Below, piece by piece: positions 41,785-55,556 of a stretch of DNA of 57,497 nt. The stretch lies in the NCBI GenBank assembly GCA_030827515.1, contig JAUREI010000005.1, positions 1 through 57,497 on the forward strand. The letters are read 5' to 3'. Position 1 is the stretch's first letter; every line of letters begins with the position of its first letter. The notes below the pieces were generated by a model, which saw only the letters and a program-made list of their open reading frames with translations, did no database searches and was not told where the DNA came from. Source of the stretch: Prosthecobacter sp. Its GTDB lineage: Bacteria > Verrucomicrobiota > Verrucomicrobiia > Verrucomicrobiales > Verrucomicrobiaceae. The position numbers and the translations under genes are program-made.

Positions 41785-41875
41785 GCCTGAACGAAAGGCG
41801 GGTGCCGACGGCCGGCAAGTCCGGAATGACGGCGAGATGAAAGCCGGCTGGAATCCTCCGGAAACCGGGTTATGG

Positions 41876-42394
41876 ATGAGCATGGCCAGGTCTCCATTTC
41901 CCCCGCGCTGGTGGCTCGCGCCGTTGCTGTATGGCACGGTCGCCCTGGCGGCGCTTGGCCTGGTGCTCGGCTTCAGTGCCACCGCGCGCGAAGTCGTCGC
42001 CCGGGCCGTGTCGATGTTGGTCGGCGCGCTCGCCACGCCCTTCATCCTGGAAACAGTCACCGCCATCACAGGTCTCGTTCTGGTCATCACGATCAATCAG
42101 TGGCGACTCAACCGCGAGGGCGACGGTTGGGTGTATCTTGCCAAGACCGAGCCCGACGCCGACAGCGTGGCCGCCGGTGCCGACCCGGCCACCGCCCGCC
42201 TGGAAGCGGTCGTCCTGACGGAGGCACCGGATGCCGCTCTCGATTTGGACGGCCGTCTCGCCATGGCCGAAGGTTATCTGGAACTCGGCCTGGCGCGCGA
42301 GGCCCTGCATCATCTGGACCGGCTCAGTCCGGCCGAGCAGGCGCACGAACGGGCTCGAAAGGCGCGTGACCAGGCCCTGGCCATGCTCGGCTGA
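41876..42394 (+). CDS. Small membrane protein with helical C-terminal domain
   Basis: 172 residues from the ATG at 41876 (MSMARSPFPPRWW); in-frame ATGs at 41837 and 41882 are alternatives. Two hydrophobic helices (WLAPLLYGTVALAALGLVLG and ATPFILETVTAITGLVLVIT) are followed by a soluble domain with a TPR-like helix pair: RLAMAEGYLELGLAREALHH and AHERARKARDQALAML. I do not recognise a family. Divergent from mobA. TPR-like helices suggest a protein-contact role at the membrane. Confidence 0.68.
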   Translation: MSMARSPFPPRWWLAPLLYGTVALAALGLVLGFSATAREVVARAVSMLVGALATPFILETVTAITGLVLVITINQWRLNREGDGWVYLAKTEPDADSVAAGADPATARLEAVVLTEAPDAALDLDGRLAMAEGYLELGLAREALHHLDRLSPAEQAHERARKARDQALAMLG

Positions 42395-42488: not shown

Positions 42489-43454
42489 ATGATGATGAGA
42501 CGCCTGCTGCTCGCCGCCCTCGCCCTCCCGGTCCTGCAGGCCGCGGAGACAGCGCCCGTGGCGCACGACGACCTGCGCGAAGTGCAGCGTCAGGTTCAGG
42601 CGCGCCTGCCTGATGTGCGGCCTTCCGTCGTTGCCATCCTCACAGGCGACGGCACCGCCAGCGGCGTCATCATCGATGCCGGTGGCCTGGTGCTGACCGC
42701 CGCGCACGTCGCCGAGCAGCCCGGCCGCGAGCTGCGCATCGTCCTCGAGGACGGCCGGCGTGTCAGTGGCACCACCCTGGGCCTCGACAAGACGACCGAC
42801 GCCGCCCTGCTGCAGCTGCATGACAGCGGCCGCAAGTGGCCGCATGTACCGGTCAACCGCCGGGTCCTGCAGGCCCAACCGGGTACCTGGTGCTTTGCCC
42901 TCGGCCATCCTGGCGGCTTCGACAAGGCGCGCGGGGTCGTGCTGCGCGTCGGTCGCATCGTCAAGCAGACCGCCAACGCCCTGCAGACCGACTGCGTGCT
43001 CATGGGCGGCGACTCCGGCGGTCCGCTGTTCAACCTGCAGGGCGAGGTGATCGGTGTGCACAGCCAGATCTGGGAGGGACGCGACGAAAACATGCATGTG
43101 TCCATGGCGCCCTTCCTGCGCGCCTGGGACGACCTGAAAAGCAGCCTCGTCATCCAAACCTGGGGCACCGGCAGCGGCGGCTACCTCGGCCTTGCCGCCG
43201 ACCTCGACGAAACCAGCGGCAGGCTTGAGGTCCTCGAGGTCTTTCCCAACTCGCCCTCGGCTCAGGCCGGCCTGCGCGCGGGCGACCGCATCCTCGCCCT
43301 CGACGACGAACCGCTGCTCAGTCTTGCCCATTTCTCCAACGCGGTGAAAACGCGCGCCGCCGGCGAGCAGGTGCGCCTGCGCGTCGACGGAACGGGCGGC
43401 GAGCGCGAGGTCGAGATCACCCTGGCCCAGCGGCCGAGCGAACCCGAGGGCTGA
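42489..43454 (+). CDS. HtrA/DegP-like serine protease with PDZ domain
   Basis: 321 residues; the start lies among three consecutive ATGs (42489, 42492, 42495). A signal peptide is followed by a trypsin-fold domain with an intact triad: His73 in VLTAAHVAEQ, Asp104 in DKTTDAALLQL and Ser176 in GGDSGGPLFNL. A C-terminal PDZ domain (about 235-321) has VFPNSPSAQAGLRAGDRILA. This is the S1C protease architecture with a single PDZ. It acts on misfolded or specific proteins in the periplasm. A 2-bp gap separates it from a catalytically dead paralogue. Confidence 0.9.
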   Translation: MMMRRLLLAALALPVLQAAETAPVAHDDLREVQRQVQARLPDVRPSVVAILTGDGTASGVIIDAGGLVLTAAHVAEQPGRELRIVLEDGRRVSGTTLGLDKTTDAALLQLHDSGRKWPHVPVNRRVLQAQPGTWCFALGHPGGFDKARGVVLRVGRIVKQTANALQTDCVLMGGDSGGPLFNLQGEVIGVHSQIWEGRDENMHVSMAPFLRAWDDLKSSLVIQTWGTGSGGYLGLAADLDETSGRLEVLEVFPNSPSAQAGLRAGDRILALDDEPLLSLAHFSNAVKTRAAGEQVRLRVDGTGGEREVEITLAQRPSEPEG

Positions 43455-43456
43455 CC

Positions 43457-44530
43457 ATGCGACCGCTTCTCCTGCTGCTCCTTCTGGGGGTCCCGCTCAC
43501 GGCCGCCGAACTGCGCGCGCCGCTGTCGCCGGAGGAACGGCGTGACGGCGCGGAAACCCTGCGCGCCCTCGAAGACGTTCGCAGTCGCATCACCGCCAGT
43601 GCGGTCCGGCTCACCACGGCCGAAGGCAGGGAGCGCGGCCTCGCCACCTGGGTGCATGCCGACGGCTACCTGCTCGCCAAGGCCAGCGAGGTGCCCGATC
43701 CAGGGGAAGTGCGCGCGCGGCTTCCCGACGGCCGTCTGGTGGCGCTGCGCGAGGTGAAACGCGACGCGGCCAGCGACCTGCTGCTGGCGCGCGCCGAGGG
43801 GGCGGCCGACATGCCGGCGGCAGCCTTTGCCGACTCCAAGCATCTGACCTTCGGCCAGTGGATCACCGCCCCGGCCCGCGACGGCAGCCTGCGGCTCGGC
43901 GTCATCAGTGCCGAACGGCGCAAAATTCCCGGTCTGGGCGCCGCCATCGGCGTGCGCATGGAGGAGCAACCGCCGGCCGGTCGCCGCGGCGTGCGCATTC
44001 TCGGTGTCGCCGAGGACAGCCCCGCCCTGGCCGCCGGTCTCGCCCAGGGCGATGTCCTGCTGCGCCTCGGCGGCCGGGAGGTGAACGACTTCCGCCAGGT
44101 CCACGAACTCATTTCCAAGCGCCAGCCCGGCGAGATGCTGGAGGTCGATTATGAGCGGGCCGGGCGCGAACGGCACGCGCGCATCCGCCTCGCCAGCCGC
44201 ACCAAGGTGCTCAACAACTGGGAGGGTGAGGACTTCGCCAACGGCGGCATCTCCCTCCGCACCGACAACTTCGCCGAAGTCCTGCAGCACGACCTGGCCC
44301 TGGCGCCGGCCGACATGGGCGGCGCGCTCCATGACCTCGACGGCCGGGCGGTCGGCCTCAACATTGCGCGGGTCGACCGTGTCACCACCTTCGCCCTGCC
44401 GGCCGAACGCTTCTGGCCGATGGTCCGCGGCTGGATCGAGGCCGACCTCCATCCCGCGCCGCCCGTCCCGGGGACCTCCAAGCCGCCGGCCGCCAAACCC
44501 GCCACCCCCAAGGCGAAGGCCAAGCCCTGA
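43457..44530 (+). CDS. Inactive HtrA-like paralogue with PDZ inside the protease domain
   Basis: 357 residues with a signal peptide (MRPLLLLLLLGVPLTAAEL). The protease fold is recognisable but lacks two triad residues: the His position is Ser77 in LLAKASEVPD, Asp107 is kept in RDAASDLLLA, and the GDSGG Ser motif is replaced by ADMGGAL (about 286-290). A PDZ domain (about 176-245; GVAEDSPALAAGLAQGDVLL) lies before the segment NFAEVLQHDLALAPADMGGA, which in active HtrA proteins precedes the PDZ. The C-terminus is Pro/Lys-rich. It probably acts as a binding or regulatory partner of the active protease next to it. The pairing is inference. Confidence 0.82.
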   Translation: MRPLLLLLLLGVPLTAAELRAPLSPEERRDGAETLRALEDVRSRITASAVRLTTAEGRERGLATWVHADGYLLAKASEVPDPGEVRARLPDGRLVALREVKRDAASDLLLARAEGAADMPAAAFADSKHLTFGQWITAPARDGSLRLGVISAERRKIPGLGAAIGVRMEEQPPAGRRGVRILGVAEDSPALAAGLAQGDVLLRLGGREVNDFRQVHELISKRQPGEMLEVDYERAGRERHARIRLASRTKVLNNWEGEDFANGGISLRTDNFAEVLQHDLALAPADMGGALHDLDGRAVGLNIARVDRVTTFALPAERFWPMVRGWIEADLHPAPPVPGTSKPPAAKPATPKAKAKP

Positions 44531-50905: not shown

Positions 50906-52501
50906 ATGCTTCGCGCCGCGACCTCCCCCGCCCTGACGCTCCTTTGCAGCCTGCTGACTCTCCTGGTGCTGTCCGCCAGCCCCCTCGCCGCCTCACCCGC
51001 CGGCGGCCAGAAACCGGCCTTCGAGGGCCACGACCAGCTCGCCCATTTTCCCCGGCCGCTGGCCACCTACAACGATCAGGCCGAGGCGAGCACGCGGGTG
51101 AAGATCATGTCACGCGCGGCGAAGGAGCCCTTCAACGTCGCCGCCACCGTCATCTTCGGCCTGGCCATCCTGCACACCTTCGCCTCCGGCTTCTTCCGCA
51201 AGTGGGCGCACACGGTGGAGCACCATCATCAGGAGAAGATCGAGCGCGAACGCCGCACCGCCCGCCACAAGCCGCAGGACGATGCCGAGGACGATGTCTC
51301 CTTCGGCGCCACCATGCTGCACTTCCTGGGTGAGGTCGAGGTGGTCTTCGGAATCTGGGTGATCGCCCTGATGGGCGCCGGCGTGTATTTCCACTCCTGG
51401 CATGACGTCCAAAACTACCTCGGCCACGACGTCATCTTCACCGAACCGCTGTTCGTCGTCGTCATCATGGCCATCGCCGCCTCACGGCCGGTCATCCAGT
51501 TCGCGGAAAAGTGCGTGGCCGCGATCGCCTCGCTCGGCGGCGGCACGGTTGCCAGCTGGTGGCTCGCCGTCCTCACCCTCGGCCCGCTGCTCGGTTCCTT
51601 CATCACCGAACCGGCCGCCATGACCATCTCGGCCATGATCCTGGCGCGCAAAATCTATCCGCTGCGCCCCAGCAACAAGCTCGCCTACGGCACCCTCGGC
51701 CTGCTCTTTGTGCATGTCTCCATCGGCGGCACCATGACCCACTTCGCCGCACCTCCCATCCTCATGGTGGCCACCATCTGGCAGTGGACCACGCCCTTTG
51801 TCTTCCTCTCCATCGGCTGGAAGTGCGTGATCGCCATCGTCGTCAGCAACCTTCTGTATTTCCTCGCCTTCCGCAGGGAACTCGCCGAACTCGACCACCG
51901 CGCCCATCCGCAGGAGGGCGAGAGCCGCCTGCTGCGCTGGGCCGACCGCGAGGATCCGGTGCCGGCCTCCATCACTCTCGTGCACCTCGGTTTCCTCGCC
52001 TGGACCGTCCTGAGCAGCCACTATCCGGCGATGTTCCTCGGCGGGTTCCTGTTCTTCATCGCCTTCGTCGAGGCCACACGCCATCACCAGAACTTCATCG
52101 GCCTGCGCTCGCCCATCCTCGTCGGCTTCTTCCTCGGTGCCCTCGTCATTCACGGCCGCTGCCAGTCCTGGTGGATCGAACCCCTGCTCACCAGCGGCAT
52201 GCCGGAATGGATCCTTCTGCTCGGCTCCGCCTTCCTCACCGCCTTCAACGACAACGCCGCCATCACCTTCCTCGCCTCGCAGGCCCCCGGCCTGACCGAC
52301 CTCGCCAAATATGCGGTCGTGGCCGGAGCGGTCGCCGGTGGCGGTCTGACCGTCATCGCCAACGCGCCCAACCCCGCCGGCCAGGCCATCCTCGGCCGCT
52401 TCTTCAAGGGCGGTGTCTCCGCCGCCAAGCTCGCCCTCGGTGCCGCCATTCCCACCGCGGTTGTCCTCACCATCCTGCTGATTCTCCGGGCGGGCGCCTG
52501 A
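50906..52501 (+). CDS. Putative Na+/H+ antiporter
   Basis: 531 residues from the ATG at 50906; an upstream TTG at 50876 is less likely. A leader (LTLLCSLLTLLVLSASPLAAS) and about a dozen membrane helices are visible. Conserved-looking stretches are FNVAATVIFGLAILHTFASG, GPLLGSFITEPAAMTISAMI, MTHFAAPPILMVA and the late FLTAFNDNAAITFLASQAPG. This matches the putative Na+/H+ antiporter family (PF07399). It would exchange sodium for protons at the inner membrane; transport has been inferred for the family. It lies upstream of the M28 peptidase gene on the same strand. Confidence 0.87.
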   Translation: MLRAATSPALTLLCSLLTLLVLSASPLAASPAGGQKPAFEGHDQLAHFPRPLATYNDQAEASTRVKIMSRAAKEPFNVAATVIFGLAILHTFASGFFRKWAHTVEHHHQEKIERERRTARHKPQDDAEDDVSFGATMLHFLGEVEVVFGIWVIALMGAGVYFHSWHDVQNYLGHDVIFTEPLFVVVIMAIAASRPVIQFAEKCVAAIASLGGGTVASWWLAVLTLGPLLGSFITEPAAMTISAMILARKIYPLRPSNKLAYGTLGLLFVHVSIGGTMTHFAAPPILMVATIWQWTTPFVFLSIGWKCVIAIVVSNLLYFLAFRRELAELDHRAHPQEGESRLLRWADREDPVPASITLVHLGFLAWTVLSSHYPAMFLGGFLFFIAFVEATRHHQNFIGLRSPILVGFFLGALVIHGRCQSWWIEPLLTSGMPEWILLLGSAFLTAFNDNAAITFLASQAPGLTDLAKYAVVAGAVAGGGLTVIANAPNPAGQAILGRFFKGGVSAAKLALGAAIPTAVVLTILLILRAGA

Positions 52502-52557
52502 TCCGCGCTGTTGCCTGCGTGCAGAAGCCGCCGTGCGGCGTATATAGGGGGTCCGCC

Positions 52558-55488
52558 ATGACCCGCGCCCTCGCTTTTCTCGCCATTGCCGCCGCCCCCC
52601 TGCACGCGCAGTCGGAGGCCGATTTCCTCGCCAACGTCCGCCAGCTCACCTTCGAGGGCCGGCGCGCGGGCGAAGGCTACTTCAGTGCCGACGGCAGCAG
52701 GATGGTCTTCCAGTCCGAGCGCGAACCCGGCAACCCCTTCTACCAGATCTACCTCGTGGATCTGGAAACCGGCGACCAGCAGCGGCTGTCGCCCGGCCTC
52801 GGCAAGACGACCTGCGCCTGGATCCACCCCGACGGCCGGCGCGTGCTCTTCGCCAGCACCCATGCCGACCCGCAGTCCAAGGCGCTGCAGGACGCGGAAT
52901 ACAAGGACCGAGAGTCAAGCCGCGTGCGCAAGTACTCCTGGGACTACGACGAACATTACGACATCTGGGAATACCACCTCGGCGACCAATCCCTGAAGAA
53001 GCTCACCGACGTGCGCGGCTACGACGCCGAGGGCGCCTGGTCGCCCGACGGCAAATCGATGGTCTTCGCCAGCAACCGCGCCGCCTACACGGAAAAACCC
53101 TCCAGCGAGGACCAGGAGCGGCTGAAGACCGACAAGCAGTATTTCATGGACCTCTACCTGGCCGACGCCGACGGCTCCAACGTGCGCCGCCTCACCGACG
53201 TGCCCGGCTACGACGGCGGCCCCTTCTTCAGCGCTGACGGCCAACGCATCTGCTGGCGTCGCTTCACGCCCAAGGGCGATGTCGCCGAGGTCTGGAGCAT
53301 GAAGACCGACGGGTCCGACGCCCGCCAGCTCACCCGCCTCGGCGCCATGAGCTGGGCGCCCTACTTCCACCCCAGCGGCGAGTATCTGATCTTCACCACC
53401 AATCTCAACGGCTTCGCCAACTTCGAACTCTACCTCGTCGATGCCGCCGGCAAGCATGACCCCGTGCGTGTCACCCACACCGACGGCTTCGATGGCCTGC
53501 CCGTGTTTTCGCCCGACGGCAGGAAGCTGTCCTGGACCAGCGGCCGCACGGCCAACGGCCAGAGCCAGATCTTCCTGGCCGACTGGGATCACGACCACGC
53601 CCGGGCCGCCCTCGGCCTCGACCGCCCGGCTGCAGCCGCCACCGCCGGCCCTGCCCCCGACCTCGCGCAGACGGCCGGTGAAATCCGCGCCGAGGACCTG
53701 CGCCGGCATGTGGAAATCCTCGCCAGCCCCGAGTTCGACGGCCGCCTCACCGGCACGGAGGGCGAACGCCTGGCCACCCAATACCTTGCCGACGTCTTCC
53801 AGGGCCTCGGCCTAATGCCCTACGGTGATGACGACTGGTTCGAACCCTTTGATTTCACCGCCGGCGTCGCCCTCGGCGACAACAACACCCTCACCCTGCA
53901 GGGCAGCGGCGACAGTGCCCCGCTCGTCGCCGACAAGGACTGGCGGCCGCTGTCCTTCTCGCAGACCGGCGAGGTGCCGGCCAGCGCCATCGTCTTCGCC
54001 GGCTACGGTGTCGAGACGCCCGACGAAGCCACCGGCGCCGACGGCAAGCCACTGGAAGCCTACAGCAGCTACGCGCACCTCGACGTGAAGGACAAGTGGG
54101 TGCTCGTCCTGCGCTACCTGCCCGAGGGCCTGAGCAAGGAGCGCCGCGGCGATCTCACCCGCTACGCCAGCCTGCGCCACAAGGCCATGGTCGCCCGCCA
54201 GAAGGGCGCGCGCGGGCTGCTCATCGCCAGCGGCCCGAACAGCAAGGTCGTGCAGCAGCTCGTGCCCATGGCCTTCGACGCCTCGCTCGCCTCCTCCGGC
54301 ATCGCCGCGATCAGTGTCACCGACGCCTTCGCCGACCGCCTGCTGCAACCCGCCGGCAAGACCCTCAAGGCCCTGCAGGATGAACTCGACACCGGCGCGC
54401 TCATGGGCGGCATCGAGTGCGGCAAGCTGACCCTCGCGGCGACCCTCGACATCCGCCAGGAGAAGAAGCGCGGCCGCAACGTGCTCGGCGTCCTGCCCGC
54501 ACGCGACAAACCCGACCCGCATGTCGCGCCCCTGATCATCGGCGCCCACATCGACCACCTCGGCAGCAAGGGCGGCTCGAATTCGCGCGCCCGCGGCGAC
54601 GAGGCGAACCGCATCCACCACGGCGCCGACGACAACGCCAGCGGCGTCGCCGGCATGATCGAGATCGCCCAGTGGCTGGCCGACCAAAAAAAGCAGGGCA
54701 GGCTGAAGCTGACCCGCGACGTGATCTTCGCCGGCTGGTCGGGCGAGGAACTCGGCCTGCTCGGCAGCAACCACTTCGCCGAGGGCCTGGCAAAGATGTT
54801 CACCGGCGACCCGAACGGCAAGCTGACCGGCATGTTCGCCGCCTGCCTCAACCTCGACATGATTGGCCGCTTCCAGAAAACCCTCGTCCTTCAGGGCGTC
54901 GGCTCCAGTTCCTGGTGGCCAAAGGAGATCGAACGGCGCAACGCCGTCATCGGCCTGCCCGTCACGCCGCAAACCGACGCCCATCTGCCGACCGACAGCA
55001 CCACCTTCTACCTGCGCGGCATCCCGACGCTGAACGCCTTCACCGGCAGCCACGAGGATTACCACCTGCCGAGCGACACCGCCGACAAGCTCGATTACGA
55101 CCGCGCCGCCCAGGTCAGCCGCCTGATGGGCCTCATCGCCCGCGCGGTCGCCACCTCGGACAGCGCCCCGGACTTCGTCGCCATGGAGGCCCCGAAAAAC
55201 CAGGGCAGCCGCGGCGGCCTGCGCGCCTACCTCGGCACCATCCCCGACTACGCCCAGGGCGACGTCAAGGGCGTCAAGCTCAGCGGCGTCTCGCCGATCG
55301 GCCCCGCCGCCAAGGCCGGCGTCAAGGGCGGCGACATCATCATCAAGCTCGCCGGCAAGGAGGTGCTCAACATCTATGACTACACCTCCCTCATGGGCGA
55401 ACTGAAGATCGGCAGCGAGACCGCCATCACCGTCCTGCGCGACGGCAAGGAGGTCGAGTTGAAGATCACGCCGGGCTCGCGCGACTGA
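52558..55488 (+). CDS. Secreted propeller-PA-M28-PDZ peptidase
   Basis: 976 residues from the ATG at 52558 with a signal peptide (MTRALAFLAIAAAPLHAQ). Four modules follow: a TolB-like propeller (about 20-355; AWSPDGKSMVFASNR), a PA-type insert (about 480-590; VARQKGARGLLIASGPNS), and an M28 zinc aminopeptidase core. The core's ligands are in GAHIDHLG (about 661-668), GADDNASG, WSGEELGLLG and NLDMIGR, with HEDYHLPSDT later. A PDZ domain closes the chain (about 880-976; GVSPIGPAAKAGVKGGDIII). It would release N-terminal residues from peptides outside the cytoplasm, with propeller and PDZ acting in substrate docking. The frame is open well upstream, but the signal peptide fixes the start. Confidence 0.9.
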   Translation: MTRALAFLAIAAAPLHAQSEADFLANVRQLTFEGRRAGEGYFSADGSRMVFQSEREPGNPFYQIYLVDLETGDQQRLSPGLGKTTCAWIHPDGRRVLFASTHADPQSKALQDAEYKDRESSRVRKYSWDYDEHYDIWEYHLGDQSLKKLTDVRGYDAEGAWSPDGKSMVFASNRAAYTEKPSSEDQERLKTDKQYFMDLYLADADGSNVRRLTDVPGYDGGPFFSADGQRICWRRFTPKGDVAEVWSMKTDGSDARQLTRLGAMSWAPYFHPSGEYLIFTTNLNGFANFELYLVDAAGKHDPVRVTHTDGFDGLPVFSPDGRKLSWTSGRTANGQSQIFLADWDHDHARAALGLDRPAAAATAGPAPDLAQTAGEIRAEDLRRHVEILASPEFDGRLTGTEGERLATQYLADVFQGLGLMPYGDDDWFEPFDFTAGVALGDNNTLTLQGSGDSAPLVADKDWRPLSFSQTGEVPASAIVFAGYGVETPDEATGADGKPLEAYSSYAHLDVKDKWVLVLRYLPEGLSKERRGDLTRYASLRHKAMVARQKGARGLLIASGPNSKVVQQLVPMAFDASLASSGIAAISVTDAFADRLLQPAGKTLKALQDELDTGALMGGIECGKLTLAATLDIRQEKKRGRNVLGVLPARDKPDPHVAPLIIGAHIDHLGSKGGSNSRARGDEANRIHHGADDNASGVAGMIEIAQWLADQKKQGRLKLTRDVIFAGWSGEELGLLGSNHFAEGLAKMFTGDPNGKLTGMFAACLNLDMIGRFQKTLVLQGVGSSSWWPKEIERRNAVIGLPVTPQTDAHLPTDSTTFYLRGIPTLNAFTGSHEDYHLPSDTADKLDYDRAAQVSRLMGLIARAVATSDSAPDFVAMEAPKNQGSRGGLRAYLGTIPDYAQGDVKGVKLSGVSPIGPAAKAGVKGGDIIIKLAGKEVLNIYDYTSLMGELKIGSETAITVLRDGKEVELKITPGSRD

Positions 55489-55556
55489 GTTGTGGACTTC
55501 AGGCAGCCCGTGGTGTTCGTGAAAGACCGGGACCGCGGCTTAAATACGACCCTGCC

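Follow-up and report, generated by a model that had tools for sequence, protein, structure and literature searches.

The HtrA/Deg proteases (MEROPS S1C: DegP, DegS, DegQ and HTRA1-3) are the described proteins with which the product of the present gene is best compared. The gene is located in a stretch of 57,497 nucleotides from Prosthecobacter sp. that was analysed at its full length (the window), and its product is referred to here as the pseudo-HtrA. The fold and sequence of the protease domain are common to both, as are a PDZ domain of the HtrA type, the L3 motif G-x-x-S-A-x-x-R and a Gln residue before the Ser loop. However, the pseudo-HtrA is devoid of the catalytic His and Ser, and its PDZ domain lies within loop L3 and not after the protease domain, where HtrA proteins have one or two. 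No PDZ domain is found at the C-terminus; the single one (residues 162-249) stands ahead of the segment with the Ser strand (residues 271-331).

According to the available part of the source, MamO, itself a dead HtrA, activates MamE without catalysis; this activation requires the C-terminal TauE domain of MamO, MamO binds metal, and a physical interaction of the two proteins was not detected (PMC4794232). The term PDZ is absent from the main text of that article. The combination of a dead HtrA-like protein with an active HtrA partner is repeated in the pair described below, but the PDZ domain of the pseudo-HtrA is in L3. A TauE domain was not among the six Pfam families listed for the pseudo-HtrA to E 10, and its C-terminus is a short Pro/Ala-rich tail.

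The CTPs (Prc/CtpA/CtpB, S41) are catalytically active, and their protease fold and clan are different from those of HtrA. They carry a PDZ domain inserted in this unrelated protease domain (PMC6686036, available part), so that an internal PDZ domain is a feature which the pseudo-HtrA has likewise. However, among the Pfam families listed to E 10 there is no Peptidase_S41, and CTP models of NCBIfam match only the PDZ part of the pseudo-HtrA. In plants, Deg5 and Deg8 form a joint complex. Deg5 has no PDZ domain and its paralogue Deg8 has one; both contain the triad residues, and activity of Deg5 was not detected (PMC3640471, available part). This combination of PDZ-less and PDZ-bearing HtrA subunits resembles those of our pairs in which the partner is PDZ-less, but no PDZ domain is present inside L3 in Deg5 or Deg8. 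No report of a PDZ domain inside a trypsin-like or HtrA barrel, or of such a gene pair, was found in open-licence PMC, although reports may exist elsewhere. The arrangement is also not described in the available part of a survey of microbial PDZ proteins (PMC6411480).

Position of the PDZ domain in the protein chain

The gene of the pseudo-HtrA with its PDZ domain in loop L3 occupies positions 43457-44530 of the forward strand, on which all features given below are located, and is open from ATG to stop over 357 amino acid residues. Residues 1-18 (43457-43510), MRPLLLLLLLGVPLTAAE, were read by eye as a putative signal peptide, and the protein is probably exported or secreted. Residues 36-161 (43562-43939) correspond to the first barrel and the first two strands of the second barrel, and the PDZ domain inserted in L3 follows at residues 162-249 (43940-44203), with limits drawn from Pfam and pLDDT. 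A return linker (residues 250-270, 44204-44266) belongs to a stretch predicted with low confidence (pLDDT below 50 for 251-282). The Ser-strand segment, residues 271-331 (44267-44449), is the rest of the second barrel and comprises Gln277, the Ser-site residue Met287 and the motif Arg305-x-x-Arg308; its first 12 residues lie within the same low-confidence stretch. The chain ends in a Pro/Ala/Lys-rich tail (44450-44527), which varies among orthologues and contains no second PDZ domain.

Pfam Trypsin_2 matches residues 69-155 with 38.1 bits (cut-off 27.6), covering profile positions 9-108 of 144 and ending short of the Ser region, and PDZ_2 matches residues 163-244 with 52.4 bits (cut-off 27). 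The embedded PDZ domain is of the HtrA type by NCBIfam. No NCBIfam model reached its cut-off; of those for named HtrA proteins, the best is TIGR02037 with 83.7 bits against 416.2. The presence of a chymotrypsin-like HtrA protease domain is indicated both by the Trypsin_2 match above cut-off and by a Z-score of 21.0 to the HtrA of Helicobacter pylori.

The earlier note placed a PDZ domain at about residues 176-245, ahead of the Ser segment. The domain is present, but its true limits of about 162-249 begin slightly earlier and make it longer. In PDB searches, residues 60-161 alone find the protease domains of DegP-like proteins and MucD (best E 1.7e-6). Residues 262-333, used as a separate query, match the Ser strand of HTRA2 (best E 2.1e-4), and their MGG is placed over SGG of the target. 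A profile of residues 251-335 matches the neighbouring HtrA in its Ser region with P 3.6e-11; in this single comparison LQHDLALAPADMGGALHDLDGRAVGLNIA of the pseudo-HtrA is aligned with LQTDCVLMGGDSGGPLFNLQGEVIGVHSQ of the neighbour. The missing Ser region is therefore found C-terminal to the PDZ domain, and the PDZ-first order is confirmed: each half of the protease domain matches HtrA on its own, with the PDZ domain between. When whole profiles are compared locally with hhalign, the first match consists of the N-terminal part and the PDZ domain, and the second is the Ser segment, out of order, which is the pattern expected for an insertion. An alignment artefact was considered as a source of the arrangement and rejected, since the halves match HtrA separately and the hhalign order fits an insertion. 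The finding is not confined to this protein: all 23 scanned members of the family match both Trypsin_2 and PDZ_2.

Two AlphaFold models were compared with known structures. Model 1 was calculated from 8 orthologues (mean pLDDT 62, pTM 0.50) and model 2 from 32 rows (pLDDT 77, pTM 0.63); the latter is biased towards the HtrA fold because partner HtrA fragments make up 24 of the 32 rows. Residues 35-330 of model 1 align to the protease domain of H. pylori HtrA with Z 18.0 and rmsd 2.4 over 158 residues, and model 2 aligns to another chain of the same entry with Z 21.0 and rmsd 2.2 over 170 residues (VIA-align). With a DegS-deltaPDZ chain of 195 residues, 183 residues of model 2 are aligned (Z 20.5, rmsd 2.8). 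At most 132 of these positions can be given by residues 30-161, so that about 50 come from later residues; these would belong to the C-terminal segment if none is contributed by the PDZ domain itself. In both models, a single HtrA protease domain is thus matched over residues of about 30-330. The pLDDT of model 2 falls below 50 at both PDZ junctions, 153-159 and 251-282, and its block means are 77-97 over residues 161-250. Whole-chain Foldseek TM-scores of model 1 are low (0.25-0.29), as is expected when the order of domains differs.

The last 110 residues could instead form an independent domain, leaving the protein without a second barrel. Such a separate domain was sought in both models and was not found, although residues 251-282 are of low confidence, which leaves some room for it. 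However, residues 262-333 by themselves match the HTRA2 Ser strand, and the models align over about residues 23-334 or less to DegS chains that consist of the protease only, which makes this alternative hardly credible. The insertion of the PDZ domain in the second barrel, as proposed in the earlier note, is supported by the sequence and by the two models, and the PDZ-in-barrel architecture can be considered well supported.

A conserved inactive family and its active partner

The catalytic positions were compared in 109 distinct pseudo-HtrA domains, which were taken from 121 open reading frames after removal of those scoring 120 bits or less and of identical domains. Not included are eight full-length places, among which seven are second copies from genus g2, as well as two weaker ones. 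The changes at the His and Ser positions noticed earlier were borne out: Ser77 in the motif KASE replaces His, Met287 replaces Ser, and Asp107 (43775-43777) is kept as the triad Asp, as it is in 107 of the 109 sequences. At the His position (Lys75-Ala76-Ser77, 43679-43687) the family has K-x-S, with Lys75 in 107, Ser77 in 106 and His in none of the 109; after thinning to below 62% identity, to allow for the relatedness of the sequences, Lys75 is found in 61 and Ser77 in 60 of 63. The Ser site is occupied by Met in 59 sequences, Cys in 20, Val in 13, Ala in 10, Ile in 4, and Ser, Thr and Leu in one each. A His-Asp-Ser triad is consequently not present in the family. Arg305 (103 of 109) and Arg308 (108 of 109) make up a motif of the family close to the L2 region.

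The near-invariance of Lys75, Ser77 and Asp107 could mean that these residues constitute a new hydrolytic site and that the protein is not dead. However, the usual nucleophile has been lost, and a buried salt bridge between Lys75 and Asp107 would be a simpler explanation, so that a new active site appears very unlikely.

The active HtrA is encoded at 42489-43454 and ends 2 bp upstream of the pseudo-HtrA gene. It has a signal-like N-terminus, from whose hydrophobic character the start codon was tentatively chosen, followed by a trypsin-like domain (Trypsin_2, 6.4e-25, residues 57-190) and a C-terminal PDZ domain (PDZ_6 at 248-299, PDZ_2 at 239-312). Its triad of His73, Asp104 and Ser176 is complete. 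A small membrane-plus-repeat-like protein lies just 5' of this gene (41867-42394) and has no Pfam match to E 0.01.

Pairing or fusion of the pseudo-HtrA with an intact HtrA is well supported. An active HtrA is found upstream on the same strand for 96 of the 109 pseudo-HtrA domains, and 12 of the 109 are fused to an active HtrA, nine by the automatic count and three (loci L050, L103 and L122) on reading. The active HtrA comes first in the nine and in L050 and L122; the order is reversed in L103, which belongs to a genome from another family of the phylum. At one locus (L075) no partner is nearby, and a partner-type HtrA is present elsewhere in the genome (52% identity, E 6.3e-89). The one genome in which the two genes lie apart is G282. 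In the aligned partners His, Asp and Ser are intact without exception (105 of 105). Sixteen of the 105 are too short for a PDZ domain, in agreement with Pfam for the two examined (L036 and L104), and the embedded PDZ domain is thus the only one of those pairs; the other 89 are long enough for a PDZ domain of their own. Two fusions, L104 (848 aa) and L107, have long linkers between a PDZ-less active HtrA and the pseudo-HtrA; the fusion L047 is of 743 aa. At least two genomes of the genus (G015 with L050, G011 with L122) possess a second, more divergent fusion of HtrA and pseudo-HtrA besides the tandem pair.

None of the 16 genomes without a full-length pseudo-HtrA contains a partner-type HtrA, the best match of 157 bits being at the level of ordinary HtrAs. 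Three control genomes gave 305-423 bits in the partner profile search, but this gap arises partly by construction because the controls are rows of the query profile. When the partner from the window was used as the sole query, three genomes that had not contributed to the profile gave 299-343 bits for their partner and 79 bits or less for the next HtrA. The absence of the pseudo-HtrA was judged by the profile for ten of the 16 and by the single protein for six (G022, G036, G038, G040, G043 and G045); G022, G038 and G045 are less than 85% complete.

In a tree of the barrels only (73 thinned rows including five other HtrAs, calculated by a quick method), one branch sets off the 35 rows of pseudo-HtrAs and one the 33 rows of partners, with SH-aLRT of 99 for both. 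This is consistent with a single origin of each. A tree of the PDZ domains only (88 columns), in which descent of the embedded PDZ from that of the partner was examined, gave no resolved grouping.

Distribution and gene neighbourhood

A near-full-length pseudo-HtrA is present in 34 of the 35 genomes of the genus, that of the window included. A decayed or frameshifted gene was rejected on these grounds, the exception (G022) being 52% complete. The protein occurs in many other genomes of the same order and in a family elsewhere in the phylum (f44); at E 1e-15, matches were obtained in 156 of 387 genomes. Outside the order, f44 apart, the matches listed cover the PDZ domain only, or part of the trypsin domain with the PDZ. 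Beyond the phylum, the comparison covered plasmids, viral structures, the PDB and one scan of genome contigs. The contig scan returned seven loci, all verrucomicrobial by title, with metagenome-assembled genomes of Verrucomicrobiaceae and Prosthecobacter among them; plasmids gave matches to the PDZ part only, in seven Leisingera records; and in the viral library trypsin-like proteins and polyproteins were matched at low query TM-scores (0.23-0.39 among the 50 matches listed).

In genus g2, the pair is not present in genomes of 2.2-2.7 Mb (G035, G100, G118, G154, G186, G241, G334 and G349), and several congeners of about 2.7-3.3 Mb have two copies of the pseudo-HtrA. A joint loss of the pair with genome reduction is possible. 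The wider neighbourhood is seldom shared, within flanks that often extend only 1.5 kb: glpK is downstream in 3 of 123 loci, two of which represent the window; the membrane ORF on the upstream side is found in 3 of 123, the same two and L051. A large ORF at 51511-55488 of the window has, by eye, WD40-like repeats and an M28-type peptidase, with a PDZ match at its C-terminus (55219-55497). A DegP-like gene of proteobacterial appearance in this assembly (L132, G000:C96:3382-4200) could belong to a contaminating contig (listed contamination 3.7).

Loop L3 and the possible role of the inactive subunit

In DegS, L3 (residues 176-189) relays the PDZ signal to loop LD of the next subunit, Arg178 being central, and in DegP an activation cluster is composed of Thr176, Ser183, Arg187 and Gln200, of which the replacement of any one reduces substrate degradation (PMC11642142, available part). 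In simulations of HtrA1, L3 is coupled to LD of the next monomer (PMC5666011, available part). L3 of DegP-like proteins is entered from the strand GIVSAxGR and is followed by a strand that carries (F/L)QTD and precedes the Ser loop. The order in the pseudo-HtrA is GVISAERR, PDZ domain, VLQHD, and the sequence thus places the insertion in L3, the sensor loop of HtrA. The start of the loop, Ser151-Arg155 (43907-43921), was equated with Ser183-Arg187 of DegP by alignment with DegP-like sequences alone, because the pLDDT of residues 153-159 is below 50.

Three of the four DegP cluster residues are kept in the pseudo-HtrA: Ser151 (Ser183), Arg155 (Arg187) and Gln277 (Gln200); the fourth position (Thr176) is not. 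In the family Ser151 is conserved in 98, Arg155 in 107 and Gln277 in 104 of 109 sequences, Arg155 and Gln277 occurring together in 104, and the thinned set (below 62% identity) has Arg155 in 61 and Gln277 in 58 of 63. The partners have no Ser at the Ser183 position (0 of 105), Arg in 78 and Lys in 26 of 105 at Arg187, and Gln at Gln200 in 47; the pair of Arg and Gln is present in 41 of 105, or 22 of 59 after thinning. Five other HtrAs from these genomes all have both Ser and Gln. The LD loop motif of the partners is almost invariant, with Gly139, Gly143 and Arg148 in 105 of 105 and His140 in 104; residues 139-143 of the partner read GHPGG. Since the dead subunit has no active site of its own to be activated, the simplest explanation for the retained cluster would be that it acts in trans.

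The near-constant adjacency or fusion to an intact protease suggests that the pseudo-HtrA is probably the regulatory partner of that enzyme. We consider it just about probable that it is a secreted, dead HtrA subunit dedicated to the upstream active HtrA and activating it in trans; the physical complex of the two proteins and the direction of the effect are presumed here. The two would form a mixed oligomer. A peptide or misfolded client bound by the embedded PDZ domain would reposition L3 and Arg155, and Arg155 would then dock on the LD loop of the active subunit and set its active site. Every subunit of an ordinary HtrA trimer is both a sender (PDZ-L3) and a receiver (LD-active site), while in this pair sending would be done mainly by the dead subunit and cutting by the live one. 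The coupling of ligand binding to barrel shape that the earlier note ascribed to the PDZ domain would accordingly have the adjacent active partner as its likely target. More tentatively, it is possible that the pair is a heteromeric, natural two-component HtrA in which allosteric control has been split between a dead L3-PDZ sender and a live receiver with an eroded cluster that responds via LD, and that it arose from gene duplication and was repeatedly joined into a single chain.

Activation in trans is supported by the pairing, fusion and co-occurrence of the genes by cluster residues that are kept in the dead subunit and eroded in the partner, and by the 16 pairs whose only PDZ domain is the embedded one. 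Precedents are the PDZ-L3-LD' signalling between subunits (PMC11642142) and MamO/MamE (PMC4794232), each from the available part of the source. It is weakened by the 89 of 105 partners that are long enough for their own PDZ domain and could regulate themselves, and by the Arg or Lys found at the L3 Arg position in 104 of 105 partners. Arg155 and Gln277, both in low-confidence stretches of the model, could be structural. In addition, the subunit that supplies Gln200 is not stated in the available part of the source (PMC11642142), and Thr176 is not kept. The undetected interaction of MamO with MamE, the separated genes of G282 and the use of profile rows as controls also count against it.

The same pairing, fusion and co-occurrence would be seen if the pseudo-HtrA accompanied the HtrA as an inhibitor, a client-holding chaperone or a scaffold and not as an activator driven through L3, and a dead barrel with a PDZ domain could hold clients. 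This is unlikely, although it deserves consideration; by itself it does not explain why the activation-cluster residues of the dead subunit are nearly invariant. The pseudo-HtrA might also act alone, for example by binding a ligand or metal as MamO does, the operon reflecting a shared regulon only. A site for such binding could be provided by the conserved Arg305-x-x-Arg308 together with Lys75/Ser77/Asp107, and MamO is a precedent. However, such independence is improbable in view of the 12 of 109 domains fused to an active HtrA, in both orders, and of the partner type missing from all 16 genomes without a pseudo-HtrA.

The allostery of HtrA proteases, from PDZ through L3 to the next LD, is hard to dissect because each subunit of the homotrimer sends and receives. 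If the pair works as proposed, with the pseudo-HtrA activating its partner, these roles are separated in nature and each could be mutated independently. It would represent a tightly linked pair of pseudoprotease and protease in a large part of one bacterial order, and its naturally fused forms would lend themselves to structural studies. It would also exemplify a sensor domain placed straight into the allosteric loop.
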